DNA of 64,000 nt, taken from contig CALSLK010000004.1 in assembly GCA_943787175.1 (NCBI GenBank), forward strand, positions 1-64,000, in the 5' to 3' direction. The translations under genes were made by a program, and so were the position numbers. The notes below the pieces were generated by a model. It was not told the origin of the DNA. It worked only from the letters and a program-made list of their open reading frames with translations, and searched no databases. Below, piece after piece: positions 26,578 to 63,532 of the stretch (within the stretch, counting starts at the first letter, position 1; every line of letters begins with the position of its first letter). Source of the DNA: an uncultured Alphaproteobacteria bacterium (GTDB lineage Bacteria; Pseudomonadota; Alphaproteobacteria; SP197).

Positions 26578-28111
<1,534 letters not shown>

Positions 28112-28112
<1 letters not shown>

Positions 28113-28672
28113 CAGCCAGCCCCTTTCATCGCAAGCTCAAGGCGTTCAAGTTTGGTGCGGATCGAGCTGTCGAGCATGCGCGATCCAATACGGACGACAA
28201 GGCCGCCCAGAAGGCCGGGATCGACCTTTGTTTCGACCGCAACGTCGCGGCCGACAATTTCCTTCAAGGTGCCGCGCAACTTCTCGAGCTCATCGCTCTT
28301 GAGTTCACGTGCCGAAGTCACCTCCGCCGTGGTTTCGCCTCTGTGGGCGGCCAGCAGGCGCAGATAATCTGAAATGACATCATCAAGGACGAACAGGCGG
28401 CGCTGCTGTGCGATCAGGCCAATGGCCCGCTGCGTCAATTCGCTGGCCTTCATGGCGTCAAGAATGGCCGCCATGGCCTTGCCCTGCTCTTCGCGAGACA
28501 GCACGGGGCTGTTCACGAGCCGGCGCATATCGTCCGATTCGGTGAGTGCGGTCAACAAGCCGCGCAAATCCTCAGCAACTGCATCCAGCTGCTTCGAATC
28601 GTCGGCGAGCTCGTAAAGCGCGCGCGCATAGCGGCCTGATAGGCCCGTGACTACGCTGTTGTCGGTGGCCAA
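28112..28672 (-). CDS. atpH: ATP synthase F1 delta subunit (OSCP)
   Basis: Peripheral-stalk subunit joining F1 to the b subunits. 186 residues, intact. It begins [20 protein letters not shown] and the C-terminal part contains [19 protein letters not shown], both typical. First gene of atpHAGDC; the F0 genes are absent here, as is usual in alphaproteobacteria where they form a separate locus. Confidence 0.95.
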
Positions 28673-34714: not shown

Positions 34715-36601
34715 TTACTGGAGCAGGTCGGATTTTTCTGGCTGGTTGGCATCGGTGCAACCGGTGTCGCCGGAACCGAGATCACCCAGGGACAGGAGCA
34801 TGGCAGGCGGAAAGAGCGTCGCCCCCAGAAGCCCGCCCAGATGGAGGGCAAGCGCGCCTTCATCAGGCGTAAAGGTGGGGTGCAACAAGGTTCCCCGCAC
34901 GTGGATCGGCACAGCAAGGTTCAGCGTAACACCCTTGGAATGGGGCACGACCTTGAGGTCGACGGTTTCCTTGCCAAGATAGATTTCCCCAGAACCGGTC
35001 ACCGTGGAGTACTTGGTGTCGATCAGCATGACTGTCTGGCTGGCAACACCGGCCTTGATGTCCCAACCCAGTGCCAGGCAATAGAGATCACCACTATCGA
35101 CACCCTTGGAGAACAGGCTGCCAATGATGGTGGCAACGCCGCCAACCAGAAGATCGAGTTCATGGGCATCAAGTTTGCCGTTCTCCATGATGACGGATGC
35201 CTTGCCATCAAGCCTTCCGGCAATCGCGGCCAAGGACGCACCGGTACCGGAAACATCAAGAATCACATCGGCTTTGCCGCTGAGACGATCTGGCGCCTGC
35301 AGGGTCTTGAGCAGGTCACCCATCTCGAGGTCGTCAAACTTGAGCGATAGCGCGGCAGCCTGCGTGGCAGCATCAGCGCTTGCCTTGCCCGACACACTTG
35401 CGCCCGAGACGTTAAAACTCAGACCATCGAGCGTGAGGCTGCCGGACTGCAAAGCAACATCGGAACTAAGATCCGTGAAGGTGAGTTCCTGAGCCTTGAA
35501 CTCGCCGATCTTCAGCGTGAGTTTGAGGTCAATCAGCTTCAGCGAATCAAACGGTAGGGATGTTTCCGGGAAAACACGGTTGGCCGCTTCCACCGCATCA
35601 TCGGCCGACTTCGTGATCGCATCCAGATCCAGTTTGTCGAGACTGAGAGAGCCCGAGACAAGCGTTAACCCGCTGGTCAGATCGAGCCTGACATCTCCCT
35701 TGAGTGTGCTGGCATCAGCGGTCGCGACGAGATCCTTGAAGTGCAACGCGCCGGCGCCGCCATCAAATTTGGTGGTGAGTTTGGCGGAATCGAGATGATT
35801 GCCCAGGTCGATACCAAAGGGGGCGAGGCCATCGCTGCTCTTGAGGTCAACATCGAGAATCACCGCGAAGAACCCCTCTGAACCAGGCTCCCCCAAACCA
35901 CCATTGATCTCTACCTTGAGACCATCGGATTCAAGGGTGAGATCAGACTCGGTTGTCTTGCCTTCAATCAAAGACGCAAGGGTTTTGAGCGTACCATTCA
36001 GCGTGAACGTGGTTCCGTTGAGATCAAGGCTTCCAGAGACCTCCAGAGGATCGGAGGGGTGCTCGGCCTTGAGCTCAAGGTCGGTCACGGTGAGTGATTC
36101 TTCTCTGTCGGCTGCTTGCGAATGAAACGTGATCTGCGTGTTCTTGATCGACACCGCCTTGAAGGCAAGTTGATGTGCCTGGCTGGATGAGGCCGCATGT
36201 GACGTTGTAGATTCGAACTTCCAGTTCGCCTGACCGTCGCCTCCGGTCTCCAGCAGGATTTTGCCACCATCGAGCACCAGACGATTGACGACGATACTGC
36301 CTGTCAGCAACGGCAGCAGCTCAACCTCGACTTCCAGACTCTTGATGCTGGCCATGTCAGCCGTCTTGCTCCAGGCCGCATTGGCAATCGATACATCCTG
36401 AATCACCAATGTGGGAGTCAGGGACTTTTCGAGTGTTAGTGCGCCACCAAGTGTGACGGTGCGTCCCGTTGCGTCCTGCAGAGCAATGGCGATGTCATCG
36501 CGGTAATCATTGGGGTCAAGCTGCGAGAGGAAGCCGATGACGGCGCCCACAGCGATGACAACCACAACAGCAGCGAGCTTTACAAAGGTTCTCAGGCGCA
36601 T
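34715..36601 (-). CDS. AsmA-family membrane-anchored periplasmic protein
   Basis: 628 residues. A single N-terminal membrane anchor (about residues 5-25, LAAVVVVIAVGAVIGFL) is followed by PNDYRDDIAIALQDATGRTV, the AsmA opening. The rest is repetitive beta structure rich in L-x-L and G, as in the AsmA/TamB-like bridge proteins implicated in moving lipids to the outer membrane. The DUF490-like C-terminal region is present. 15 nt downstream of lpd. Confidence 0.88.
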   Translation of the reverse strand: MRLRTFVKLAAVVVVIAVGAVIGFLSQLDPNDYRDDIAIALQDATGRTVTLGGALTLEKSLTPTLVIQDVSIANAAWSKTADMASIKSLEVEVELLPLLTGSIVVNRLVLDGGKILLETGGDGQANWKFESTTSHAASSSQAHQLAFKAVSIKNTQITFHSQAADREESLTVTDLELKAEHPSDPLEVSGSLDLNGTTFTLNGTLKTLASLIEGKTTESDLTLESDGLKVEINGGLGEPGSEGFFAVILDVDLKSSDGLAPFGIDLGNHLDSAKLTTKFDGGAGALHFKDLVATADASTLKGDVRLDLTSGLTLVSGSLSLDKLDLDAITKSADDAVEAANRVFPETSLPFDSLKLIDLKLTLKIGEFKAQELTFTDLSSDVALQSGSLTLDGLSFNVSGASVSGKASADAATQAAALSLKFDDLEMGDLLKTLQAPDRLSGKADVILDVSGTGASLAAIAGRLDGKASVIMENGKLDAHELDLLVGGVATIIGSLFSKGVDSGDLYCLALGWDIKAGVASQTVMLIDTKYSTVTGSGEIYLGKETVDLKVVPHSKGVTLNLAVPIHVRGTLLHPTFTPDEGALALHLGGLLGATLFPPAMLLSLGDLGSGDTGCTDANQPEKSDLLQ

Positions 36602-36616
36602 GACGTGGTTCCGCGA

Positions 36617-38011
36617 TCAGAAGTGAATGGCACGTTTTGTAACTGCAAGAGCTGCTTCCTTGACCGCTTCGGAAAAGGTCGGATGAGCATGACAGGTCCG
36701 CGCGATATCTTCCGATGATGCACCAAACTCCATGGCGACGGCGGCCTCGGCGATCAGTTCGCCCGCACCGCTTCCCAGGATGTGCACGCCCAGAACGCGA
36801 TCCGTTTTAGCATCGGCAAGGATCTTCACCATGCCGCCGGTCTGGTCATAGGTTCGCGCGCGACTGTTGGCGAGCATGGGGAAGCTGCCGGAAAGGTAAT
36901 CAACGCCCTCGGCCTTGAGCTCGTCTTCGGTCTTGCCGACCGAGGCTGCCTCAGGATCCGTGTAGACCACCCCTGGAATCACGCCGTAGTTCACATGCCC
37001 GGACTGGCCAGCCAGAATTTCGGCTACGGCCATGCCTTCATCCTCGGCCTTGTGCGCCAGCATGGGCCCGCGAACGCAGTCACCCAGGGCATAGATGCCA
37101 GAGACATTGGTGGCAAAATGATCATCGATGGCAACCCTACCGCGGTCGTCCAGCGCGACGCCTGCATCTTCCAGACCCAGCGCATCCATGTATGGGCGAC
37201 GGCCAACCGAAACCAGCACGACATCACAGGCGATGGTTTCGGCATCGCCACCGGCTGCGGGCTCGAGCGTGACCTTCAGTTCTTTCTTCATCGGCTTTAC
37301 GCCGGTCACCTTGGTACCAAGCTTGAAACCAAGCCCCTGGCGTTTGAGCAGCTTCTGGAATTCCCTGGCGATCTCGCCATCCATACCCGGCGCGATACGA
37401 TCAAGATATTCCACGACCGTGACTTCGGCGCCCAGACGCTTCCAGACCGAACCCATCTCAAGGCCGATGAAACCTGCACCGATCACCAACATGCGTTTGG
37501 GTACCTCTGGCAGAGCAAGCGCGCCGGTGGACGAAACAACCCGTTCCTCATCAATGTCGATGCCTTTCAGGTCAGCAACATCCGACCCGGTCGCAATGAC
37601 GATGTTTTTGGTCGAAACCTTCTTGCCTGCGACCTCAACGGTGTTGGCATCAACAATGCGGCCTTCGCCAGGAAGATGCGTGATCTTGTTCTTCTTGAAG
37701 AGGCCCGCAATGCCCTTGGTCAGCGTATCGACGACTTTGTCCTTGCGTTTCATCATGGTCGGAAGGTCGAGCTCTACGCCCGAGACCTTCACGCCATGTT
37801 TCCCCAGGTGGCCGTTGGCCTGTTCGTAAAGTTCAGAAGACTGCAGCAGAGCCTTGGACGGGATGCAGCCGACATTGAGGCAGGTACCACCCAGGGTTTC
37901 ACGCTTTTCAACGCAAGCTGTCTTCAACCCAAGCTGCGCGCAGCGGATGGCGCAGACATATCCGCCGGGCCCCGCCCCGATAACGACAACGTCAAAATCC
38001 TGATCGGCCAT
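36617..38011 (-). CDS. lpdA: dihydrolipoyl dehydrogenase (E3)
   Basis: FAD disulfide oxidoreductase that reoxidises lipoamide in 2-oxoacid dehydrogenase complexes. 464 residues. The FAD motif is GAGPGGY at about residue 12, redox cysteines are Cys44 and Cys49 in GGTCLNVGCIPSK, the NAD site is VIGAGFIGLEMGS, and the C-terminal active His is in CHAHPTFSE. It has its own strong ribosome-binding site (AGAGGAGA). In most relatives it directly follows sucB; here lodA-lodB are interposed. Confidence 0.97.
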   Translation of the reverse strand: MADQDFDVVVIGAGPGGYVCAIRCAQLGLKTACVEKRETLGGTCLNVGCIPSKALLQSSELYEQANGHLGKHGVKVSGVELDLPTMMKRKDKVVDTLTKGIAGLFKKNKITHLPGEGRIVDANTVEVAGKKVSTKNIVIATGSDVADLKGIDIDEERVVSSTGALALPEVPKRMLVIGAGFIGLEMGSVWKRLGAEVTVVEYLDRIAPGMDGEIAREFQKLLKRQGLGFKLGTKVTGVKPMKKELKVTLEPAAGGDAETIACDVVLVSVGRRPYMDALGLEDAGVALDDRGRVAIDDHFATNVSGIYALGDCVRGPMLAHKAEDEGMAVAEILAGQSGHVNYGVIPGVVYTDPEAASVGKTEDELKAEGVDYLSGSFPMLANSRARTYDQTGGMVKILADAKTDRVLGVHILGSGAGELIAEAAVAMEFGASSEDIARTCHAHPTFSEAVKEAALAVTKRAIHF

Positions 38012-38114
38012 GCTTCATCTCCTCTGCATTAGAGCTTAACGACACAACGCGGCGGGAACGCTCCACGATTCCGCCTCGTCGCGATCTGCTCTTGTCTTTC
38101 AGTCATAGAGCATA

Positions 38115-39221
38115 TCACGGTTGCGTCGAATCCTGCGCTGCCGCCGCACTGCGACGCAGCCAGAAAGGTGCCTCTGCGAAACGCCCTTCAAGGGCGTAGA
38201 TCCGCTGCCGTGCGTCCAGGAACGCCTGCACACCGTCAGCGACACGAGCGGCATAATCAGCCAGTGGCCCATCATCCCCATCGAGCGATGCAAGGGCAGC
38301 TGTGGCACCCCGGGCGCCGGTCCACAATGCGGTCGTCATGCCATGCGAAGAAAGCGGGTCAAACGCCGCGGCAGCGTCGCCTACCGCCAGCCATGCCTTC
38401 CCCGCTGCCGGAGCGATCCAGGTTGTTGCCGCACTTGCCAGAGCCGGTGGCGCATCGATGAGAAAGCCGGCTTCAGCAATCCACCGGCCGACATGGCGCG
38501 TGCTCCCCAGCATGGACGTCAGAACAGAGGCATCACGCGTGGCATGCCGGGGCAACAGATTGGGATCGCTGAAATGGTTGAGGACGAGCCTGCCATCGGC
38601 AAGCAGAGCCGCATACCACCAGCCTTCAGCAACCGTTTCCACGAGGCTTGCCGGTGTGGGCGCAACATCAGACTGCGGGTCCTGATCGAGAAACGTGTAA
38701 AGCGCCGCCAATTGGTCGGCGCGAAACCGTGAAGAATGAAGCGAAGCGACCGTCGCGGCCCGCCCGCTGGCATCGATCAGGAAGCGGGCGGAAAAGCTCT
38801 GACCCCCAGCCTGGAGTTGCCAGAGACCATCACGCCATTGTGCCCGTTCGAGAGGTGCCGCTATCCGGCGGGCTCCCGCAGCCAGCGCGGCAAGATCGGC
38901 ATCGAACACGCTGCGGTCAAGCACAGTCCCAGCCCCTTCCAGGTGCACAACGGCGTCACGCGTGGCCAGCCGGGATTGCCCCCAGGCCGACAGCATGGTC
39001 TGGGCAGGGCGATGGCAGGAACGATCGAGCAGATGGCGCGCGCCCAGATCGTCGAGCAGCGGTCCGGCAGCCGGCGCCAGATGTTCACCAGGTCGCCCGG
39101 CAGGTGTGTCCTCCGGTGCGATCCAGAGAACGTCCGACCCGGATCGGGCCAAACTAAGACAAGCCGCAGAACCTGCAATGCCGCCACCGATGACCGCAAT
39201 CGCGGCAACATCAAAGCTCAT
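38115..39221 (-). CDS. lodB: LodB-like FAD-dependent oxidoreductase (quinone cofactor maturation)
   Basis: 368 residues. It has an N-terminal dinucleotide fold IAVIGGGIAGSAACLSLARS and a second FAD motif GDAAAAFDPLSSHGM near residue 290, the pattern of flavin-dependent monooxygenases and halogenases to which LodB belongs. In known systems LodB is required to build the cysteine tryptophylquinone in LodA. The ATG at 39221 overlaps the lodA stop (ATGA), so the products are made in coordination. It has no signal peptide and so acts in the cytoplasm. The assignment rests mainly on its pairing with lodA. Confidence 0.8.
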   Translation of the reverse strand: MSFDVAAIAVIGGGIAGSAACLSLARSGSDVLWIAPEDTPAGRPGEHLAPAAGPLLDDLGARHLLDRSCHRPAQTMLSAWGQSRLATRDAVVHLEGAGTVLDRSVFDADLAALAAGARRIAAPLERAQWRDGLWQLQAGGQSFSARFLIDASGRAATVASLHSSRFRADQLAALYTFLDQDPQSDVAPTPASLVETVAEGWWYAALLADGRLVLNHFSDPNLLPRHATRDASVLTSMLGSTRHVGRWIAEAGFLIDAPPALASAATTWIAPAAGKAWLAVGDAAAAFDPLSSHGMTTALWTGARGATAALASLDGDDGPLADYAARVADGVQAFLDARQRIYALEGRFAEAPFWLRRSAAAAQDSTQP

Positions 39222-41248
39222 TTGGGCAGGAGACCGTGTTCATCCGACCAATCGAACCGCATTTCCATGGTGTCAGCACGGCCAACCTCGACGAACAGTT
39301 CGTCGGGGATGCCGTCTGGTCGACCGGCATCGTCGGGACCGGGGCGACGCACCACGAAGCCCATGCGTTCCCACAGGGCAATCATGTTGGTGATACCGTC
39401 CCAGTAGCTTCCGCTGGCGTGATAGCCGATGCCCGAAACCCCGCGCGACCAGGCAACCCTGCCGCCAAGGAAACGCTGGCGTTCATGAGCAGGAAGGTCG
39501 GAACGCATGACCTGCTTATAATATGCCTCTGGCAACACATCGACGGGCAGGTGTGCAGGCCACCAAACGGCGGTAGGGAAATCCTCCTGCATGAGAACCT
39601 GCTGACAACTGAAGACATCGCATTGCCAGGGCAGGCCCATCCAGCGGGTGAGATCACCGGCCATCTGCGGCCCGACAGGGGGTGGGACATCGCCATCGCC
39701 TTCAAAGGCCTTTGCCGGCGTGAGCAGACGCCCGACATTCTGAAGCAGTCCGGGCCTTGTGCCGTGAGCGATCCGGAACGGTTCGCTGCTGCTGTCACCG
39801 TTGCGCGCATAAAGTTCTGCCAGGCGCAGGTAATAGGAAAGTTCGACACCGGGGTGGAAGGCCCCGCCCGAGCAGGGCTCCAGCGCAGCCTCGGTGAGTG
39901 CCATGGGCTGGCGTTCCACCGGCAGATCCTCAAGCCGGACAACAGCATTGGCTGTGTCATCCTCAAGATCGTTGACGAAATCTCCAGCGGCCCAGGCACG
40001 CAGGTGTTCGTATTGCCGCGTGGGGAAGCGGAACCACTGCAACGGACTGCCGCTGTAGTTGACGCCGTCTCCCATCATGTAGGGAAGCTTGGCTGCCCCT
40101 GTGACATAGGCATCGGGCGCGTCGTCATAGGGATCGCGGAACATCGCAAAGACCTTCTCGCGGAAGGCGCGGTTTTCCTCCGACGGATCAGCAAGTCGCG
40201 CGATATGGGCAGGATCGGAAAAGTCTCCGGCATCAAGCCAGCCCACACGCAATTGCGCGGCTTCGGTGAGCTAGGTCATGAGACCAAGTCGATGGAACGT
40301 TGGATAGATATGACTGCGGAACGACAGTGGCCCTTCAGGATCGGTCTCCCAACCTTCTTTTTGGTTGAGGTCTGCGATGAGGTCAAAAAGAGTGGTGATC
40401 GAAGGAATGCCAGGCGCAAAATTGGGGCCCACGCAGGCAACCCAGGAGGGCTCGGCTTCCAGTTCCCTACCATCGGCCAGCGTGACCATGGCGTTGACCG
40501 GGCCATCGCACCAGTCATCGAACCAGGCGTCGTTGTCGGCAAAACTCGTGATCCCCGCACCGGTCGGCGAGGACGAAATGCCATCGGCCGGCATGACCAG
40601 CAGACGGCCGGCGTCATCAGTGCGCAACTCGCCCAGCGCCACATCCACCGTGTCCCAGAAACGGCCGGTGAACCCGAGCGAGGCATCACCGCCACCAGCG
40701 TTGACCGACGTTCCTGAAATCTCGCGCTCGCCACCTTCGATCAGCAACATGCGCTCGCGCACGTCATCATCAACAAAGAACTGATTGCGTAACTGTCCCG
40801 GCAGACCCGGCGCAAGTTCGCCGTTATCGAGTGGATTGTTGAAGCCGTACCAGGCTGCTTTGGTGTTGGCCAAACGGACGCGCCAGCTGATCTCGGCCCC
40901 GGCATCCTGGACCTCACCGATAACCCGGTCCTGATCATCGAAGGCACAGACCCGGAACCGCTGGGCCTGTTTCTTGATCTTCAGGTTGCCGTCCTTGAAG
41001 TCGCCATCCTCCGGCTGGGGCGCCAGGCCCGGCACTTCAGGGGCATGGAACCACTTGGCTGAGCCGCCGACCCTGCTGATACCGATGGCCGGATAGATGC
41101 GTACCCGGGCAACGGCCGCACCGACAGGGGCAGGCTCTGCGCTGGCTGAAGCAACCGCAGGGCGGGGCATGAGCGGAAACCCGGAAAGCAGGGAACCTGC
41201 TGCGGCACCGGCCAGAAAATCGCGCCGGGTCGGCTTCGGATTGGCCAT
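39218..41248 (-). CDS. lodA: LodA/GoxA-like CTQ amino-acid oxidase, Tat signal, interrupted by one in-frame TAG
   Basis: One reading frame of 677 codons is split only by a TAG at 40271-40273; the sequence resumes in the same frame (LTEAAQLRVGW). The N-terminus has a twin-arginine signal (TRRDFLAGAAAG, then a hydrophobic stretch to about residue 36). Family blocks are IYPAIGISRVGGS, DGDFKDGNLKIKKQAQRFR, NTKAAWYGF and ELRTDDAGRLLV. Asp544 and Cys548 (PWQCDVFSC) match the Asp-x3-Cys of LodA, whose Cys516 is cross-linked to Trp581; candidate partner Trps here are Trp600 and Trp616. Expected products are an aldehyde or keto acid, NH3 and H2O2. The substrate is unknown. The start is 2 nt after sucB. 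Confidence 0.82.
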
Positions 41249-41250
41249 GA

Positions 41251-42513
41251 TCAGATTTCCAGCAGCAACCGCTGGGGATCCTCAATGGCGTCTTTCAGTC
41301 GGACCAGGAACGTCACGGCCTCGCGACCATCGATGATGCGGTGATCGTAGCTGAGTGCCAGATACATCATGGGGCGGATGACAACCTCGCCATCGACGGC
41401 GATCGGTCGTTCCTGGATCTTGTGCATGCCCAGAATGCCCGATTGCGGCGGATTCAGAATGGGCGTGGACATGAGTGAACCAAAGATGCCGCCATTCGAG
41501 ATCGTGAAGGTGCCACCGGTCAGGTCGTTGGGCGAGAGTTTGCCGTCACGTGCCTTGACGCCAAGGGCTCCGATGTTCTTCTCGATCTCGGCAAAGGACA
41601 GTTTGTCGGCATCACGCAGCACCGGAACCACAAGGCCCGAGGGCGAACTGACAGCCACACCGATATGGTAATAGTGCTTGTAGATGATCTCATCACCGGC
41701 AATCTCGCCGTTGACCGCCGGGATGTCCTGGAGCGCCTGAATGGCGGCGCGCACAAAGAACGACATGAAGCCCAGACGCACGCCATGTTTCTTCTCGAAA
41801 CGCTCCTGGTACTGTTTGCGCGCGGCCATGACCGCGGTCATGTCGACCTCGTTGAAGGTCGTGAGCATCGCTGCGGTGTCTTGTGCTGCCTTGAGGCGTT
41901 CGGCAACACGCTTGCGCAGACGCGTCATCTTCACACGTTCCTCGCGGCCCTCCGGGTCTGGCGCGGTGGGCGCAACGGCAACCCGTTCGCGCGGCGCAGG
42001 CGCTTCGGCCGCAGCTGCAGCAGGTCTCGGCGCTTCTTCCTTGGCACCACCTTCCAAGTGGGCCTGAACGTCGGCCTTGGTCAGGCGGCCATCCTTGCCC
42101 GTACCTGCAATGGCAGAGGCATCGAGGTTGTTTTCATCGACCATCTTGCGCACGGCAGGTGAAAGCGGCAGATCGCTCTTTGCCTCGGCAGCCGGCGCAG
42201 GCGCGGGTGTTTCTTCCTTGGGCGCCGGTGCAGATTCTTCCTCCTGTGCGGGAGCGGCCGTTGCTGCTGGGGCGTCGCCTTCTTCGACCTTGCCCAGGAT
42301 CGTGCCGACCTCGACATCGCTGCCTTCGTCGAACATGACATCGGAAAGCACACCCGATGCCGGGGCGTAGACTTCCATCGTCACCTTGTCGGTTTCGAGC
42401 TCGACGAGCGGTTCATCACGCGTGACAGCATCGCCCTTTTTCTTGAACCAGGTCGCAACCGTGGCCTCCGAAACGGACTCGCCAAGCTGGGGCACCTTGA
42501 TTTCGATTGCCAT
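41251..42513 (-). CDS. sucB: 2-oxoglutarate dehydrogenase E2 (dihydrolipoyl succinyltransferase)
   Basis: 420 residues. The lipoyl domain covers residues 1-77 with the lipoylated Lys43 in ETDKVTMEV. An Ala/Pro/Glu linker (about 80-115) is followed by a peripheral-subunit-binding domain ([14 protein letters not shown]) and the catalytic domain, with DHRIIDG near the C-terminus. [13 protein letters not shown] at 42513 is the true start; an open frame upstream is not part of the protein. It follows sucA by 32 nt and is followed by lodA after 2 nt. Confidence 0.97.
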
Positions 42514-42545
42514 CGTGTTGTTCCGTCCTGTGGTTGTCGTGCGCT

Positions 42546-45482
42546 TCAGCCTGCCAGGGCTTCGTTGACGAGCGCTTCCTGCTCGCGTTCGTGCACACGG
42601 ATAAAGCCGGTTGCGGGAGATGCCGCCTCGTCGCGCCCGACATAGCGCGGCAACACCATCTTGAGTTCGCCCTTTTCCATGGCCTGCTCGATCTTGTCGC
42701 GCACGAAGTTCCAGGCGCCCATGTTGCGGGGTTCTTCCTGACACCAGATGAATTGGGAATTGGGGTAGTAGTCGACGGCCTCCTGCAGGGCATCGAGCGG
42801 GAACGGTGCGAGCTGTTCCAGGCGGATGAATGTGACGCTCTTGAGGCCAAGTTTCTCGCGCGTTTCGAGCAGGTCGTAATAGACCTTGCCGGTGCAGAGC
42901 ACGACCCGTTCCATATCCTTGCCATGGCTGGCGTCATCGAGCTCCCAGAGCGTGCGGTGGAATTGCGTCTCACCGGTGAAGTCTCCGGTCTTGGAGACGC
43001 AACGTTTGTGCCGCAACAGGGATTTGGGTGTCATGACGATGAGCGGCTTGCGGAACTTGCGCTTCATCTGACGCCGAAGCAGGTGGAAATAAGAAGACGG
43101 GGTCGAGCAGTTGGCGACCTGGAGGTTGTCTTCTGCTGCCAGTTGGAGGTAACGCTCCGGCCGGCCCGAGCTGTGCTCAGGCCCCTGCCCTTCATAGCCA
43201 TGGGGCAACAGCATGACGAGGCCCGACATGCGGAACCATTTGCTTTCACCGGCGGTGAGAAACTGATCGACGATGACCTGGGCGCCATTGGCGAAGTCGC
43301 CGAACTGAGCCTCCCAAAGGACCAGCGTGTTGGGGTCAGCAAGGCTGTAACCGTACTCGAAACCAAGAATGCCTGCTTCCGAGAGCATGCTGTCGATGAC
43401 CTCGTAGCGGCCCTGGTCGTCGCTGATGTGGTTAAGCGGGGTGTAACGTTCTTCGGTGATCTGATCGACCAGCACGGAATGGCGCTGGCTGAACGTGCCA
43501 CGCCCACAATCCTGCCCAGACAAGCGCACATTGGCACGCTCGTAGCACAACGTGCCAAAGGCCAGGGCTTCGGCCATGGCCCAGTCGATACCTTCGCCAT
43601 CATCAATCATGGTACGGCGCTGATCGAGAATACGCTTGAGCTTGCGGTGGACGTTCACGTCATCGGGGTAACTGGCAATGGCATGGCCCACAGTCTTGAG
43701 CTCTTCAGCGGGAACCGCGGTCATGCCGCGACGCGCGCCATCACGTTCAGAGACTTCAAGACCGGACCAGACCCCTTCAAGCCAGTCGACCTTATTGGGT
43801 TTGTAGCCCTGCGAGGCTTCCAGATCCTTTTCCAACTGACCGTTGAAGTCCTGGATCATGCGATCGGCCTGCTTGGGCGTGATGACACCTTCCGACACCA
43901 GCCGCTCCGTATAAAGCTGGCGGGTCGTGGGGTGCTTGGCGATGTTGCGATACATGATGGGCTGCGTGAACGCCGGCTCATCACCTTCGTTGTGGCCGTG
44001 GCGGCGATAACAGAAAATATCGATCACCACATCGCGCCCGAATTCCTGGCGGAACTTGGCTGCGACCTTGGCGACATGCACCACGGCTTCAGGGTCATCG
44101 CCATTCACATGGAAAATCGGTGCCGAGACCATCTTGGCGACGTCGCTTGGATAGGGCGAGGAACGCGAGAAGCTGGGATTGGTCGTGAAACCGATCTGGT
44201 TGTTGACGATGATGTGGATCGTGCCGCCGGTCTTGTGACCGCGCAGTTCCGACATGCCCAGAGTTTCAGCAACCAGGCCCTGACCGGCAAAGGCCGCATC
44301 GCCATGGAGCAGGATGGCCAGAACCTTCTTGCGATCCTCGTCCCCCAACATCTCCTGCTTTGCTCGGACCTTGCCCTCGACCACGGGATTAACGGCTTCG
44401 AGATGCGATGGGTTCGCGGTGAGCGAGAGGTGAATCTTGCGTCCATCGGCCACCTGGCGATCCTCGGAGGTACCCAGATGGTACTTCACGTCACCCGAAC
44501 CATGGACTGCATCGGGGTGGCTGGACTCACCCTGGAATTCCGAAAAGACCTGAGCATAGGACTTGCCCATGACGTTGGTCAGGATGTTGAGGCGCCCGCG
44601 ATGGGGCATACCCAGAACAATCTCCTCGACGCCACCGCGCGCGGCCGTACGGATGATGGTCTCCATGGCAGCGATGGTGCTTTCACCGCCTTCCAGCGAG
44701 AACCGCTTGGAGCCTGGATACTTGATGGAGAGAAACTTCTCGAAGCCTTCCGATCGAAAAATTTCCGAAAGCACACGTTTCTTCTCTTCCGGCCCCAGTT
44801 CTGCATCCGAACGGGTGCCTTCGAACTTGCGCTGGATCCAGGACTTTTCATCCGGACTCTGAATGTGCATGAACTCGACGCCGATCGTGCCGCAATAGGT
44901 CTTGCGCACGGCATCGAGAATCTGCTGCAGCGTGGCGCGCTGGAAACCCAGCACACCATCAACAAAAAACTCGCGGCCATAATCGGCATCGGTAAAGCCG
45001 TAGCTCTTGGGGTCAAGCTCGGGATGGTGGCGGCTGCCTTCGATGCCCAGGGGGTCGAGGTTGGCCGCCAGGTGGCCGCGCACACGATAGGCGCGGATCA
45101 TCATCAGGATCCGGATACTGTCGCGCGCAACAGCGTATTCGGCGACAGAATCGCGATGGCCCGGTACCGGTGCCCAATCAGGCGCGCCGCGGTTTGTGCC
45201 GTTGCCATCGTAACCGTGCAAAGGGCGGCCGTTGCCATTGCTGCTGCGGGGTGGAGAGCCAAAGCCTTCGGGTTCGTCCTCGAAATCCTGCACGCGGCGC
45301 GCCGCGCGGGCCGGTTCCAGCTCCGCCAGGATGGAGGCGGCATCATCGTTCAGGTCGTCGAAGACCTCACGCCATTCCTTGCTGACATCATCTGTATCGG
45401 CACGATAACGCGCATAGAGTTCTGCGATGTAATTGGCGTTGGTGCCGTTGAGAAAAGAGAGTTCGTCGATCCGCTGTCCCAT
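42546..45482 (-). CDS. sucA: 2-oxoglutarate dehydrogenase E1
   Basis: Thiamine-diphosphate-dependent decarboxylase of the 2-oxoglutarate dehydrogenase complex. 978 residues and intact, close to the usual 950-990. The N-terminal E2-binding segment ([16 protein letters not shown]) precedes [19 protein letters not shown] (thiamine binding) and the C-terminal [12 protein letters not shown]. It lies between sucD (45 nt) and sucB (32 nt), in one operon. Confidence 0.98.
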
Positions 45483-45527
45483 GGACGCATTCTGCCGCGC
45501 GTTGCGGCCTCCAGATTGGAAAAGTCT

Positions 45528-46403
45528 CTAGCCCTTCATCGCCGCCAGCATGGCTTTGCCCAGGCTTGCGGGTGAATCAGCAATGGTAAAGCCCGCACTC
45601 TGCATGGCTTCGATTTTGTCTTCCGCCTTGCCCTTGCCGCCAGAAATGATGGCACCGGCATGGCCCATGCGTCGGCCCGGAGGCGCGGTGACACCGGCAA
45701 TGAACCCGGCGATGGGCTTCTTGCGTTTGTCCTGCTTGATGAATTCAGCGGCATCTTCTTCGGCCGATCCGCCGATTTCACCGATCATGATGATGCCTTC
45801 GGTTTCGTCATCGCCCAAGAACAGTTCCAGGCAGTCGATGAAGTTGGTGCCGTTGACGGGGTCACCACCAATGCCGATGCAGGTCGTCTGGCCAAGGCCA
45901 ACACCCGTGGTCTGGTGCACCGCTTCATAGGTCAGCGTGCCCGAGCGCGAAACGACGCCGATCTTGCCGCGCTTGTGGATGTGACCCGGCATGATGCCGA
46001 TCTTGCATTCATCAGGCGTGATAATGCCCGGGCAATTGGGGCCGATCAGACGCGAGCCAGAACCCTGCAGCGCGCGTTTGACGCGCACCATGTCGAGGAC
46101 CGGAATACCTTCGGTGATGGCAACGATCAGTTCCACGCCAGCATCAACGGCTTCAAGAATGGCGTCACCGGCAAAGGGCGGCGGCACATAGATGACCGAA
46201 GCATTAGCGCCGGTATGGGTAACGCACTGCTCGACCGTGTCATAGACGGGCCGGTCGAGATGGCTTTCCCCGCCACGTCCGGGCGTGACGCCGCCAACGA
46301 CCTGCGTGCCATAGGCAATTGCCTGTTCGGAATGGAAGGTGCCGGTCTTGCCGGTGAAACCCTGAACCAGAACCTTGGTGTCGCGATTGACGAGAACGGC
46401 CAT
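45528..46403 (-). CDS. sucD: succinyl-CoA synthetase alpha subunit
   Basis: Forms succinate and ATP/GTP from succinyl-CoA with SucC. 291 residues. It begins [21 protein letters not shown] (CoA-binding fold). [14 protein letters not shown] and the phosphohistidine loop [16 protein letters not shown] near residue 245 are present. ATG 46403 overlaps the sucC stop by one base. Confidence 0.98.
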
Positions 46404-47573
46404 CAGGCATCTCCCTTGATGGCGGCCACGGCCTTTGCCGCAGCGTCACTGAGATCATCGGCAGGCGTGAGCGCAAGGCCGGAATCGGCCAGGATCGCCT
46501 TGCCCTGATCCACGTTGGTGCCTTCCAGGCGCACGATCACGGGAATCTGGAGATCCAGTTCCTTGGCCGCTGCGACAATGCCTTCGGCGATGACATCACA
46601 GCGCATGATGCCGCCAAAGATGTTGACCAGAATGACCTGCACGTTCGGGTCCGACACGATGATGCGGAACGCTGACGCTACCTGCTCCTTGGTCGCACCG
46701 CCGCCGACATCAAGGAAATTGGCCGGTTCGCCGCCTGCAAGCTTGCAGATATCCATGGTTGCCATGGCAAGGCCTGCACCGTTCACCATGCAGCCGATCG
46801 TGCCATCGAGCTTGATGTAGTTGAGCCCGACGTCATGGGCTTCGAGCTCTGCCGGGTCTTCCTGGCTATCGTCGCGCATCTCCGCCAGGTCCTTGTGACG
46901 GAACATGGCGTTGTCATCGATGTTGAACTTGCAGTCGAGCACCACCAGATCGCCCGCTTTGGTCACCACCAGCGGATTGATTTCCAGCATGCTGGCGTCG
47001 CTTGACAGGAAGGTGGCGTACATCGCACCCAGCAGTTTGCCTGCCTGCTTGACCTGATCGCCCTCAAGCTCGAGTGCCGCAGCAAGGCGGCGACCGTGGA
47101 ACGGCATCAGGCCGCTTGCAGGATCGATGCTGAGCGAGATGATCTTCTCGGGCGTGGTGGCAGCAACCTCCTCGATATCCATGCCGCCTTCGGTCGAGGC
47201 GATCACGGCGATACGGCTGCTGTCACGATCCACCAGAAGCGCCAGATAAAGCTCACGCGCAATATCGGAGCCTTCCTCGACATAGACCTTGTGGATCGGC
47301 TTTACCGGCAGGGCCGGTCTGATGGTTGATCAGGAGTTCCCCGATCATGCCGTCGGTGGCCTGGCGCACTTCATCATGGGTCTTGCAGACCTTGATGCCG
47401 CCTGCCTTGCCGCGCGCGCCGGCGTGGACCTGCGCCTTGACGACCCAAATGGCGCCGCCGAGTTTTTTGGCTCCGGCGACCGCTTCGTCACCGTTGCCGG
47501 CCACTTCGCCCCGCGGCACGGCAACACCGTGAGACGCGAGGACCTGTTTGGCCTGATATTCGTGCAAATTCAT
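46403..47573 (-). CDS. sucC: succinyl-CoA synthetase beta subunit, one insertion
   Basis: ATP-grasp subunit of succinyl-CoA synthetase. [20 protein letters not shown] starts at ATG 47573. One extra base in the TTT at 47301-47303 (AAA in the gene) breaks [15 protein letters not shown]; removing it gives exactly 389 residues, the usual length. Later motifs are [21 protein letters not shown] and [10 protein letters not shown]. First gene of sucCDAB. Confidence 0.97.
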
Positions 47574-47698
47574 GGATTTGCCCTGAGGACGACGCTCCGA
47601 AACATGGGAAAAAGAACCAGTTCGATCACCATACCATCGGCTCAGACGATAACAACCGGACGAATCCTCAGAATCCAAGCGTTTTCAGGCAACTGGAC

Positions 47699-48163
47699 TC
47701 ATTGAGTCAGATAGACACCACAACCAAAGACGTAACCATCGTAGCGCACCACCCAACTGGCCTTGGGCGTGATGTCTCCGGTTATGGGATCTTCACGCAG
47801 ATACTCGACCCAGACACCGTCCGGGGTGGCGTGATCCACAATCATGGCCCCATAGGCGGTATCGGCAGCATCCCGCAGGGAGCGTGCATCCATCCCGACC
47901 CGTCCGGGATCAGCGACCTGAGCCACAACGGCGCCATCAGCGGCGACAACAAAGACATAGAGGTCACGGTCACGAAATCTCGATTCGCCGGAGTTCATCT
48001 CGGCAAACGCTGCTTCGACGCCAACTTCACGGGTAAAGGCAATGGCATCGGCAACCATGGCCTGGGCTTCTTCAGGCGTACCCCGCTCCTGGGCTATCGC
48101 AGACACCGGAAGGAAAAGAGCCAGTGCCAACAGAGTCATCAGCGCGGTTTTCGGCAGGGTCAT
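47699..48163 (-). CDS. secreted single-Cache-like protein (copy 4 of 4)
   Basis: 154 residues with a signal peptide (about 1-24, ending AIAQ). The mature part shares with its three neighbours an EAQAMV helix, a DLYVFV strand, WVEYLREDPITG and a C-terminal KASWVVRYDGYVFGCGVY. This is the pattern of small single-Cache (sCache_2-like) ligand-binding domains, usually found in chemoreceptors but here as a free periplasmic protein. It lacks the KSS of the other copies (KAS instead). It lies 126 bp upstream of sucC. The ligand is unknown; small carboxylates are typical for the fold. Confidence 0.72.
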   Translation of the reverse strand: MTLPKTALMTLLALALFLPVSAIAQERGTPEEAQAMVADAIAFTREVGVEAAFAEMNSGESRFRDRDLYVFVVAADGAVVAQVADPGRVGMDARSLRDAADTAYGAMIVDHATPDGVWVEYLREDPITGDITPKASWVVRYDGYVFGCGVYLTQ

Positions 48164-58940: not shown

Positions 58941-60737
58941 TCAATAGACCCGCGCCTTGGGCGGGACTGTTTCAACGTCATCGGTCAGCGTTTCCATATG
59001 CACGGGCCGATAATCGATATTGTGTTTTCCGTCATCGGTGAGCCAGCAGACCGAGTGTTTCATCCAGTTCTCGTCATCACGGTCGGCAAAATCCTCGCGG
59101 GCATGGGCGCCACGGCTTTCCTTGCGGTTTTCCGCGCAGTTGATCGTGACCACAGCCTGACGCAACAGGTTGTCGAGCTCCCAGGTTTCCACCAGGTCGG
59201 TGTTCCAGATCATGGAGCGATCAGACACGCCGACATCGGAGAAGCTGTCGAAGACATCAGCCATCTTGTTACAGCCCTCCGCCAGGGTTTCCTGGGTACG
59301 GAAGACCGCTGCGTCGTTCTGCATCGTGCTCTGCATCTTGGCGCGGATGGCAGCCGTGGGGGTGTCACCCTTGGCATGACGCAGACGGTCGAGACGGTCG
59401 AGCGTTGCTTCGCCGGCATCCTTGGGCATTTCGCGCAGACGCGCACCGGGCTTGACCACCTCGGCAGCGCGTATCGCAGCCGCACGGCCAAAGACGACGA
59501 GGTCGAGCAGCGAGTTGGAACCCAAACGATTGGCGCCGTGGACCGAGACACAGGCCGCCTCGCCCGCAGCCATCAGGCCGGGAACGACCGTGTTTGGATC
59601 GCCATCCTTCGGGATGACGACTTCGCCCTGGTAGTTCGTTGGAACACCGCCCATGTTGTAATGCACGGTGGGCAGGACGGGGATCGGCTCCTTGGTCACA
59701 TCAACACCCGAAAAGATCTGCGCACTTTCGGAAATGCCCGGCAGGCGCTGATGGATGATCGCTGGATCAAGGTGGTCGAGTTTCAGGAAGAGATGGTCCT
59801 TGTCGCCGCCCACGCCACGGCCGTCGCGGATTTCCATGGTCATGGCACGCGAGACAACATCACGGCTGGCAAGATCCTTGGCCGATGGCGCATAACGCTC
59901 CATGAAACGCTCGCCTTCGGAATTGACGAGATACCCGCCCTCGCCGCGCACACCTTCGGTGATCAGCACACCGGCACCGTAAACACCCGTGGGATGGAAC
60001 TGCACGAACTCCATGTCCTGGAGCGGCAGGCCTGCGCGCAACGCCATGCCGCCACCATCACCGGTGCAGGTATGCGCCGAGGTGCAGGAGAAGTAGCAAC
60101 GCCCGTAACCGCCCGTGGCGATGATCGTGGTATGGGCGTTGAAGCGGTGGATTGTGCCGTCATCGAGACACCAGGCCATGACGCCCTGACAACCGCCTTC
60201 GTCGTCCATGATGAGATCAAGGGCGAAGTACTCCAGGAAGAACTGCGCCTGGTTCTTGAGCGACTGCTGGTAAAGCGTGTGCAGGATGGCGTGCCCGGTG
60301 CGGTCGGCAGCCGCGCAGGTGCGCTGGGCCGTGCCCTCACCATAATCGGTCGTCATGCCGCCAAAGGCGCGCTGATAGATCTTGCCCTCTTCGGTGCGCG
60401 AGAACGGAACACCATAGTGTTCCAGCTCGATCACGGCAGCAGGAGCTTCCTTGCACATGTATTCGATGGCGTCCTGGTCACCCAGCCAGTCCGACCCCTT
60501 GATGGTGTCGTACATGTGGAAGCGCCAGTCATCGTGGCCCATGTTGCCCAGCGAGGCTGAGATGCCGCCCTGAGCAGCCACGGTATGGCTTCTGGTTGGG
60601 AAAACCTTGGTGATACAGGCCGTATGTAGCCCCGCTTCAGCAAGGCCCAGCGTGGCGCGCAGACCCGCACCGCCGGCGCCGACGACGATAACGTCATAGG
60701 AATGGTCGATAATCTTGTAGGCAGGCGAAGCTGTCAT
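58941..60737 (-). CDS. sdhA: succinate dehydrogenase flavoprotein subunit
   Basis: 598 residues from ATG 60737 ([20 protein letters not shown]). FAD is covalently linked through His51 in SHTVAAQGG. The active-site region reads [20 protein letters not shown], and the C-terminal part contains the conserved Arg-rich [13 protein letters not shown]. Intact. 20 nt from sdhD. Confidence 0.98.
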
Positions 60738-60757
60738 AGCGTGAAAATCCTTCGCCT

Positions 60758-61111
60758 TCAGGCCGCGAGCATGATGATGGAAACGATGCCGGCGGCGGCA
60801 AGAAAGAACGTGAAAAGCGTAAGCGAAACAACAAGTGCCATCTTGACGCATGCGTTGTGGACATAGTCCTCGATGACGACCTGCAGACCCAGTTTCATGT
60901 GATAGAGGCCCGCAGCCACAAGCAGGATCAACACCACAGGCGTGATCGGAATCTGCATGAGTGCGGTGAATTCACGATGGGTCGCACCGGCCATGTTGGG
61001 CAACAACCCGACCAGAAACAGGATCAGCGGGATGAGCGCGATGGCCGTGAGCCGCTGATGCCACCAGTGGGATGTGCCGGTTTTGGCGGGGCCGAGCTTG
61101 TCTTTACTCAT
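60758..61111 (-). CDS. sdhD: succinate dehydrogenase membrane anchor
   Basis: 117 residues with three hydrophobic helices. [19 protein letters not shown] and the heme-proximal HxxxG region ([16 protein letters not shown]) mark it as the SdhD type of alphaproteobacteria. It contributes to the quinone and heme b sites. 3 nt after sdhC. Confidence 0.93.
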
Positions 61112-61604: not shown

Positions 61605-62651
61605 TCATCTGGGCATCAAAGCCCAGTAATCGAGATCCAGCACCTTGTCGGGGTGATCCTTGCCGTCCTCACCCTTGTCGGGCAGGTCTTCGCAGGGGTG
61701 GTTCTTGGCCGCAATTGTGCGGATACGCACCGCGCCGACATCACTTCGGCCGGCAAGTTCGGCCTTTTCGAGGATTTCCGACCAGGCATAGATCGTGTCA
61801 CCCGCAAAGGTCGGTGACGTGTGACGCCCGCCGTTCAGTGCAACGATGCGGCAGGCATTAGCCAGACCGTTGAACGAGAGCGCCCGGGCCAGGCTGATGA
61901 TGTGGCCGCCATAGATGATGCGCCGGCCAAAGCGGGTTTCGGCAGCGCGATGCAGATCAAAATGGACCTTGGCCGTATTCTGATAGAGCCGCGTGGCCAT
62001 CTGGTGTTCGGCTTCCTCGATCGCCATGCCGTCGACATGGTCGATGCGGTCACCCACCTGATAGTCGCCAAAGCCGCGCGGATCGCCCGCAGCCATGCGG
62101 TCATAGCCGGCAAGATCAAGATCAGCGGGAACATGGAGCGAGGCGGCATCAACAGCCTCTGGCAGTTCAGGAACCTGCGGTTCCGCAGTCGGACTTTCTG
62201 GATCGGCCTTGTTCACCATCACCCAGCGCACGTAGTCGAGCACAGTTTCGTCGCGCTGGTTGGTGCCGTTCGAGCGCACCCAGACGACGCCTGCCTTGCC
62301 GTTAGAAAGCTCGCGCTTGCCCAGAACGGTTGAAACGGTTTTCAGCGTATCACCGGGATAGACCGGCACACCAAAACGTCCATCGGCATAACCAAGGTTG
62401 GCAATGGCGTTGAGCGAGACATCGGGCACCGTCTTGCCAAAGACGATGTGGAAGACGAGCACGTCATCAATCGGACTTCCCGAAAGCCCGCAAGCCTGAG
62501 CGAAGGTATCGGCGGAATGAAGCGCGAAACGCGAGCCCGTCAGTGCGGTGTACAGCGCCGTGTCACCAGTCGTGATCGTGCGCGGCGTGGCGTGGTTGAG
62601 AACACCACCGACTTCGAAATCCTCGAAGAAGTTGCCGGGCTGCGCACTCAT
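61605..62651 (-). CDS. mch: mesaconyl-CoA (beta-methylmalyl-CoA) hydratase
   Basis: Double hot-dog MaoC-like enzyme of 348 residues. The N-terminal half starts FFEDFEVGGVLNHATPRTIT and contains DVLVFHIVFGKTVPD; the C-terminal half has TRFGRRIIYGGHIISLARAL. The full-length pattern matches mesaconyl-CoA hydratase of the ethylmalonyl-CoA pathway, which interconverts mesaconyl-CoA and beta-methylmalyl-CoA. It overlaps the CitE-like gene by 4 nt, linking hydration and cleavage steps. Confidence 0.88.
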   Translation of the reverse strand: MSAQPGNFFEDFEVGGVLNHATPRTITTGDTALYTALTGSRFALHSADTFAQACGLSGSPIDDVLVFHIVFGKTVPDVSLNAIANLGYADGRFGVPVYPGDTLKTVSTVLGKRELSNGKAGVVWVRSNGTNQRDETVLDYVRWVMVNKADPESPTAEPQVPELPEAVDAASLHVPADLDLAGYDRMAAGDPRGFGDYQVGDRIDHVDGMAIEEAEHQMATRLYQNTAKVHFDLHRAAETRFGRRIIYGGHIISLARALSFNGLANACRIVALNGGRHTSPTFAGDTIYAWSEILEKAELAGRSDVGAVRIRTIAAKNHPCEDLPDKGEDGKDHPDKVLDLDYWALMPR

Positions 62652-63532
62652 GCCGCTTCACCGCCAAAGCGTTCGATTGCCTCAGCCAGCTGCAGAACGC
62701 GACGCGCTTCCTGAACGTGCAGGTTCTCAATGAGTTGACCATCAACCACCACGACACCCTTGCCATGGGCGGATGCTTCGCTGTGCGCTCCGATGATCCG
62801 TTTGGACCAGGAGACTTCCTCTTCTGTGGGACCAAAGATCGTGTTGGCCGCTTCAATCTGTTTGGGATGGATCAGGGTCTTGCCGTCAAAACCCATGTCA
62901 TGACCTTGGTGGCAGATCGCCTCATAGGCATCCATGTCCTGGAGGTCGAGATGGACCCCATCGAGGATCGAGATATCGAAGGCGCGGGCCGCCAGCATGC
63001 AAATGCCCAGGCTGGTGATCATGGGCAGGCGATCGCGCGTGTGCTGGGCTGCCAGGTCCTTGGTAAGATCCGACGTGCCCATGACCAGCGCACCGATGCG
63101 CGGCGTGGCCGAGGCAATCCGTTCTGCATGGAGCATGGCAAGCGGTGTTTCCATCATGCACCAAACCGCCATGGATTCGGGCGCACCGGCAACATCCATA
63201 ATCGAGAGAACCTCGCGGATGTACCCGGCACCCTGAACCTTGGGCAGAAGCAGCGCGTGGGCGCCAGTCTGGCAGGCCTCGACTATATCCTCGCGGCCCC
63301 AGGGCGTGGACAGACCATTGACGCGAACCACCAGTTCACGCTGGCCGTAACCACCACCATGAATAGCCTCGCATACCTGTTTGCGGGCTGAATCCTTTGC
63401 ATCGGGAGCCACGGCGTCTTCGAGATCAAAGATCAACCCATCGGCTGCAACCGATTTGGACTTTTCCAGTGCCCGGGCGTTGGAGCCGGGCATGTACATC
63501 ACGCTGCGGCGCGGACGGATGGTACGCGGCAT
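62648..63532 (-). CDS. CitE-family malyl-CoA lyase / thioesterase
   Basis: 294 residues of the HpcH/HpaI-CitE fold. RPRRSVMYMPGSNARALEKS, GLIFDLEDAVAPD (metal-binding Glu/Asp) and VMGTSDLTKDL are present, with GKTLIHPKQIE near the end. Coupled to the mesaconyl-CoA hydratase gene, it should act on beta-methylmalyl-CoA or malyl-CoA: lyase (Mcl1-type) or (3S)-malyl-CoA thioesterase (Mcl2-type). The length and N-terminus fit the shorter CitE-like group, so lyase activity is not certain. Confidence 0.82.
   Translation of the reverse strand: MPRTIRPRRSVMYMPGSNARALEKSKSVAADGLIFDLEDAVAPDAKDSARKQVCEAIHGGGYGQRELVVRVNGLSTPWGREDIVEACQTGAHALLLPKVQGAGYIREVLSIMDVAGAPESMAVWCMMETPLAMLHAERIASATPRIGALVMGTSDLTKDLAAQHTRDRLPMITSLGICMLAARAFDISILDGVHLDLQDMDAYEAICHQGHDMGFDGKTLIHPKQIEAANTIFGPTEEEVSWSKRIIGAHSEASAHGKGVVVVDGQLIENLHVQEARRVLQLAEAIERFGGEAA

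Follow-up and report, generated by a model that had tools for sequence, protein, structure and literature searches.

A GoxA/GoxB-type gene pair, with an in-frame TAG in goxA, located between sucB and lpd of an uncultured alphaproteobacterium

The closest described counterpart of the locus is the goxA-goxB pair of Marinomonas mediterranea (Marme_1655/1654). As far as the portions of PMC3948610 dealing with these genes go, the two loci have in common the gene pair, its order and the Tat signal, and the GoxA and GoxB family models bear the Marinomonas gene names, while the pair in the window (the whole stretch of 64,000 nucleotides from an uncultured alphaproteobacterium that was analysed) differs in lying inside a suc operon and in having goxA broken by a TAG codon. 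The same portions report a Tat signal in Marinomonas GoxA and enzyme activity in culture supernatants (PMC3948610). Group II of the LodA-like proteins, mostly from Alphaproteobacteria, is similar as well; according to the excerpts on this group in PMC4417212, every member except three has a twin-arginine motif, and a lodB-like gene lies downstream; a suc operon context or an early stop codon is not mentioned in the group II description within them. Nisaea denitrificans, a group II member named in these excerpts of PMC4417212, was included in the present comparison as locus L006. An occurrence of goxA with sucB or lpd, or in a suc operon, was not found in the open-licence literature, among the matches listed. 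The lysine epsilon-oxidase pair LodA/LodB resembles the window pair in superfamily and operon logic, the difference being that the scores of the window proteins with the LodA and LodB models fell well short of the cut-offs. Solved relatives of the window protein were GoxA entries such as PDB 6byw, presumably the GoxA of Pseudoalteromonas luteoviolacea, and LodA (2ymw, 3weu) matched far more weakly. The 6byw protein is more distant, with a chain of 816 aa, and matches the window protein both before and after the stop, sharing with it the DxxxC stretch and the Trp at the stop position. Enzymes of the GoxA family, which carry a cysteine tryptophylquinone (CTQ) matured by GoxB, produce glyoxylate, ammonia and H2O2 from glycine, and GoxA-type enzymes have been tied to biofilm dispersal and antagonism.

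The original prediction had named the pair LodA/LodB; the family models place it in GoxA/GoxB instead. Read through the stop, goxA scored 1165 bits with the GoxA model NF038173 in a search of the genome (cut-off, 750 bits), and its halves taken separately scored 534 bits (positions 2-318) and 612 bits (positions 321-668), each below 750. The gene adjoining goxA scored 471.8 bits with the GoxB model NF038174 (cut-off, 400 bits). The LodA model NF038172 gave 114 and 39 bits on the two goxA halves, the sum of which is also below the cut-off of 600, and the LodB model NF038171 gave 199.1 bits on goxB against a cut-off of 400. As both goxA halves and goxB matched their families at E <= 1.3e-141, these frames are not chance readings. 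The genome contained a single GoxA match, that of the window, and six GoxB-model matches, of which just the goxB of the window was above the cut-off. Specificity for lysine epsilon-oxidation finds no support in the family identity. On sequence, the pair is GoxA/GoxB, a CTQ-dependent glycine oxidase with its maturase, of predicted activity.

The residues expected of such an enzyme were present. Each of the four residues listed for the 3' part of goxA in Table 1 is invariant in 51/51 homologs. C548 and W600 align with a Cys and a Trp of 6byw, and we take these two to be the CTQ cofactor pair, the Cys being assigned from the spacing in LodA. The twin-arginine signal at the N terminus scored 20.6 bits with TIGR01409 (cut-off, 16.7), and a twin-arginine pattern occurred within the first 60 residues of all 51 homologs.

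Table 1. Positions in the window of the goxA-goxB pair and the genes next to it
Feature	Position	Strand	Remarks
goxA, 5' part	40271..41248	-	325 codons; Tat signal RRDFL at residue 8; LodA_N domain; ends at in-frame TAG
In-frame TAG, codon 326 of goxA	40271..40273	-	Trp position in 51/51 aligned GoxA homologs
goxA, 3' part	39218..40270	-	350 codons and stop; same frame as 5' part; LodA_C domain; C548, W600, D544 and H465 kept
goxB, flavoprotein maturase of glycine oxidase	38115..39221	-	368 aa, uninterrupted; ATGA overlap with goxA
goxB-lpd spacer	38012..38114	-	103 nt
sucB (E2 of 2-oxoglutarate dehydrogenase)	41251..42522	-	Upstream neighbour; first codon provisional
lpd (E3)	36617..38011	-	Downstream neighbour
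sucA (E1 of 2-oxoglutarate dehydrogenase)	42546..45482	-	Same operon

On the minus strand the genes follow one another in the order sucA, sucB, goxA (41248-39218), goxB and lpd. The sucB-goxA junction reads TGA-TC-ATG, with the sucB stop at 41251 and the next ATG at 41248, and the overlap of goxA with goxB lies at 39218-39221; the predicted 2-nt gap and ATGA overlap were thus both borne out. The suc genes and lpd had been described as complete, which held for sucD, sucA, sucB and lpd, all full-length relative to the nearest sister genome (G004; SucB 94% identical), and failed for sucC, which as assembled is in two frames. The spacer between goxB and lpd folds at -34.4 kcal/mol (z, -2.1). It is unrelated to the sucB-lpd spacer of the sister, the only significant match being in the nucleotides adjoining the lpd start. 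The spacer of the sister (L118, 5641-5778) is itself a long, strong hairpin of -68.2 kcal/mol (z, -3.8). A scan for terminator-like sites showed no excess (4 found vs 5.7 in shuffles).

Comparison with relatives showed the pair to be extra in an otherwise ordinary locus. Positions 34722-38022 and 41251-48070 of the window align to positions 52067-48767 and 48639-41804 of the sister contig, and between these collinear flanks the sister has 127 nt and the window 3,228 nt. Fifteen other genomes of the family were compared, and a genome was counted as resolvable when one contig held at least the end of sucB and at least the start of lpd. In 14/14 resolvable relatives sucB and lpd were neighbours, the matched ends lying 13-351 nt from each other; in the 15th, G015, the contig ends at sucB. 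No GoxA match was found in any of the 15. The order sucB-gox-lpd, whose conservation had been proposed as a check, was found only in the window among the genomes examined. As grounds for refutation the original prediction had named the lack of the pair here in close relatives together with an artefactual contig join; the relatives do lack it here, but the join has no appearance of an artefact. A chimeric join was rejected because each flank runs collinear with the sister and gene boundaries mark the junctions. Repeats at the insertion were short, chance-like ones only, and neither spacer recurred in the sequences compared. The G+C content of goxAB (0.60-0.64 in 1-kb windows) was barely distinct from that of the surrounding genes (0.58-0.62). 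From these alignments the insertion looks clean and local, and is likely sporadic.

Among 385 sampled genomes of the class, 4 had GoxA above the cut-off, the genome of the window included, and 13 had a match of any strength. In the GoxA tree the window sequence pairs with one from Microvirga on long branches, the highest identity being 71%. Rows from Actinomycetales, Marinomonas and Alcaligenaceae stand among the alphaproteobacterial ones in this tree, in which 18 of 49 inner branches were unresolved. The flanks of 53 goxAB loci were searched (E up to 1e-10, >60 bits) over at most 9 kb on each side, or a shorter stretch where a contig ended, and gave no hit for sucA, sucB, sucD, lpd or the AsmA gene. 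Suc or lpd neighbours were likewise missing from G030 (about 8 kb a side) and from L140 and L141, whose flanks are short. When the ORFs of 54 goxAB loci were clustered, two large clusters (41 and 38 loci) covered the gox genes and other families comprised 4 loci each; clusters of 9 and 7 loci were taken, from their position, for probable antisense frames of the gox genes. No recurrent neighbour family stood out beyond the gox region in these 54 loci, although a weaker association could be missed by the greedy ORF choice, which favours long spurious frames in G+C-rich DNA. Horizontal gain of goxAB is likely from this distribution. Loss of the pair in all sampled relatives is a possible alternative, with which an identity of just 71% to the nearest GoxA and the long branch of the window sequence would be compatible. 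On the comparisons made, the best reading of the arrangement is that a core operon captured a portable oxidase-maturase cassette in a single event.

The reading preferred here, with a probability of roughly 0.85, is that a goxAB cassette, confined to this lineage as sampled, was most likely inserted into an ordinary sucCDAB-lpd operon, and that it would encode an exported glycine oxidase if goxA were intact and would be inactivated by the TAG. The pair would be transcribed with the suc operon. Intact GoxA would be exported by the Tat pathway, would be matured by the flavoprotein GoxB to carry CTQ, and would oxidise glycine outside the cytoplasm to the products known for its family. As assembled, goxA would yield no full-length enzyme; the product would be an exported fragment of 325 residues lacking the cofactor half, presumably inactive. 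It is unlikely that the cells hold a working goxAB under the suc promoter and that their output of the exported, H2O2-forming glycine oxidase follows respiratory growth under TCA-cycle control; if true, operon capture would have placed such an oxidase under the control of the central pathway. The locus is a clear case of a self-contained two-gene cassette of oxidase and maturase in a core-metabolism operon with sucB and lpd left uninterrupted. The gene pair belongs to a known type, its position is unusual and unconserved, and a lone case of this sort has little functional weight.

The goxA gene had been taken for one open frame, the TAG that breaks it having been overlooked. The ORF listing accordingly gave two goxA frames in the same phase, of 325 and 344 aa, and reading the TAG as X gave 676 residues. 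The distant 6byw sequence has Trp in column 326, as do the aligned homologs. In a leave-one-out comparison the window GoxA departed from 2 of 145 invariant columns (Y101C and the stop), other rows from up to 4, and the window GoxB from 0 of 25; the 3' half is hence undecayed, with no trace of prolonged decay after the stop, and long decay of goxA was rejected. From these data, the TAG is about equally likely to be an assembly error or a very recent nonsense mutation, because goxA has suffered a substitution and lies in a less affected part of an assembly that very probably bears errors.

Assembly error, in which case the goxA of the cells would be full-length, functional and transcribed with the suc genes, has close to an even chance. 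Genes that a cell should keep are broken in the window: atpA (26581-28136) is in three frames and sucC (about 46406-47600) in two, each being a single frame in the sister. Frame breaks or non-triplet gaps were also found near 1.7-3.4, 6.5-7.4, 11.4-13.4, 19.7-20.6 and 24.3-25.7 kb, where the sister again has a single frame; single extra bases are numerous in these broken stretches. The aligned window has 98 single extra bases and 17 single missing ones relative to the sister. As a cell is not expected to survive a broken atpA, the assembly very probably contains errors, and the frame-broken stretches point to an error-prone assembly rather than to real pseudogenes. The undecayed state of GoxA, apart from the stop and Y101C, is in favour of the same explanation for the TAG. 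However, the breaks found are indels and the goxA lesion is a substitution, and goxAB is free of frame breaks. Of the 98 single extra bases, moreover, 86 fall in the 2-28 kb bins and just 3 in the 28-48 kb bins; sucC, roughly 6 kb away from goxA, holds one of these 3. The broken frames of housekeeping genes are in any case to be weighed before claims of pseudogenes or recoding are made. The broken genes include ones that look proA- and nadD-like by sequence, and a real gene may lie antisense to the frame near 24.3-25.7 kb. Another metagenome-assembled genome (MAG), Rhodospirillaceae MAG M30B52, has two goxAB loci, L053 and L054; goxA and goxB of L054 and goxB of L053 match in pieces, which suggests that the assembly of this MAG likewise has frame breaks.

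A real nonsense mutation of recent date, which would make goxA a young pseudogene with a possible polar loss of goxB, has a chance somewhat short of even. A lone stop at an invariant Trp, together with Y101C at another invariant column, is in its favour, and a stop inside GoxA occurred in the window row only of 17 match rows from the 385 genomes of the class. The 350 uninterrupted codons after the stop and the intact goxB mean, however, that little time can have elapsed, and the error-prone assembly also speaks against this explanation.

A conserved metabolic link between the amino-acid oxidase and the 2-oxoglutarate dehydrogenase complex, as put forward in the original prediction, is very improbable. 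The common strand, the 2-nt and 4-nt junctions inside the operon and the lack of excess terminator-like sites are in its favour. Against it, the arrangement occurred once in all loci examined (0/15 relatives and 0/53 goxAB loci), no neighbour family recurred outside the gox region, and lysine specificity was unsupported by the family models. The Tat motif in all 51 homologs further suggests that the oxidase would act outside the cytoplasm, away from 2-oxoglutarate dehydrogenase. Of the two substrates suggested, lysine, via 2-oxoadipate, falls with the LodA assignment; conversion of glycine to glyoxylate fits the GoxA family, as a predicted activity. A connection with malyl-CoA chemistry near 62 kb had also been proposed. 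A hydratase-like gene and a gene for a CitE-like lyase, the latter below every listed cut-off, lie at 61605-63532, near the succinate dehydrogenase gene sdhA (58941-60851); both are kept in the sister, which has no goxAB, and so are no specific partners of the pair. The locus cautions against taking genes of one operon for partners in metabolism.

Synthesis of full-length GoxA by programmed readthrough or amber recoding is scarcely credible and was rejected as unlikely: although the phase and the conserved sequence continue past the TAG, the homologs hold a plain Trp (51/51), TAG serves as an ordinary stop of other window genes, sucD included, PylS was not found above its cut-off (22.3 bits vs 178), and a CUA anticodon was present in none of the 30 tRNA loci called by ARAGORN and in none of the 31 tRNAs altogether, in a set that is incomplete (tRNA-Trp and tRNA-Tyr are absent from the ARAGORN calls, and the genome is 91.8% complete) and so leaves room for a suppressor. 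The 31st tRNA was uncalled by ARAGORN, and visual inspection of its Rfam alignment gave the anticodon as UAA.
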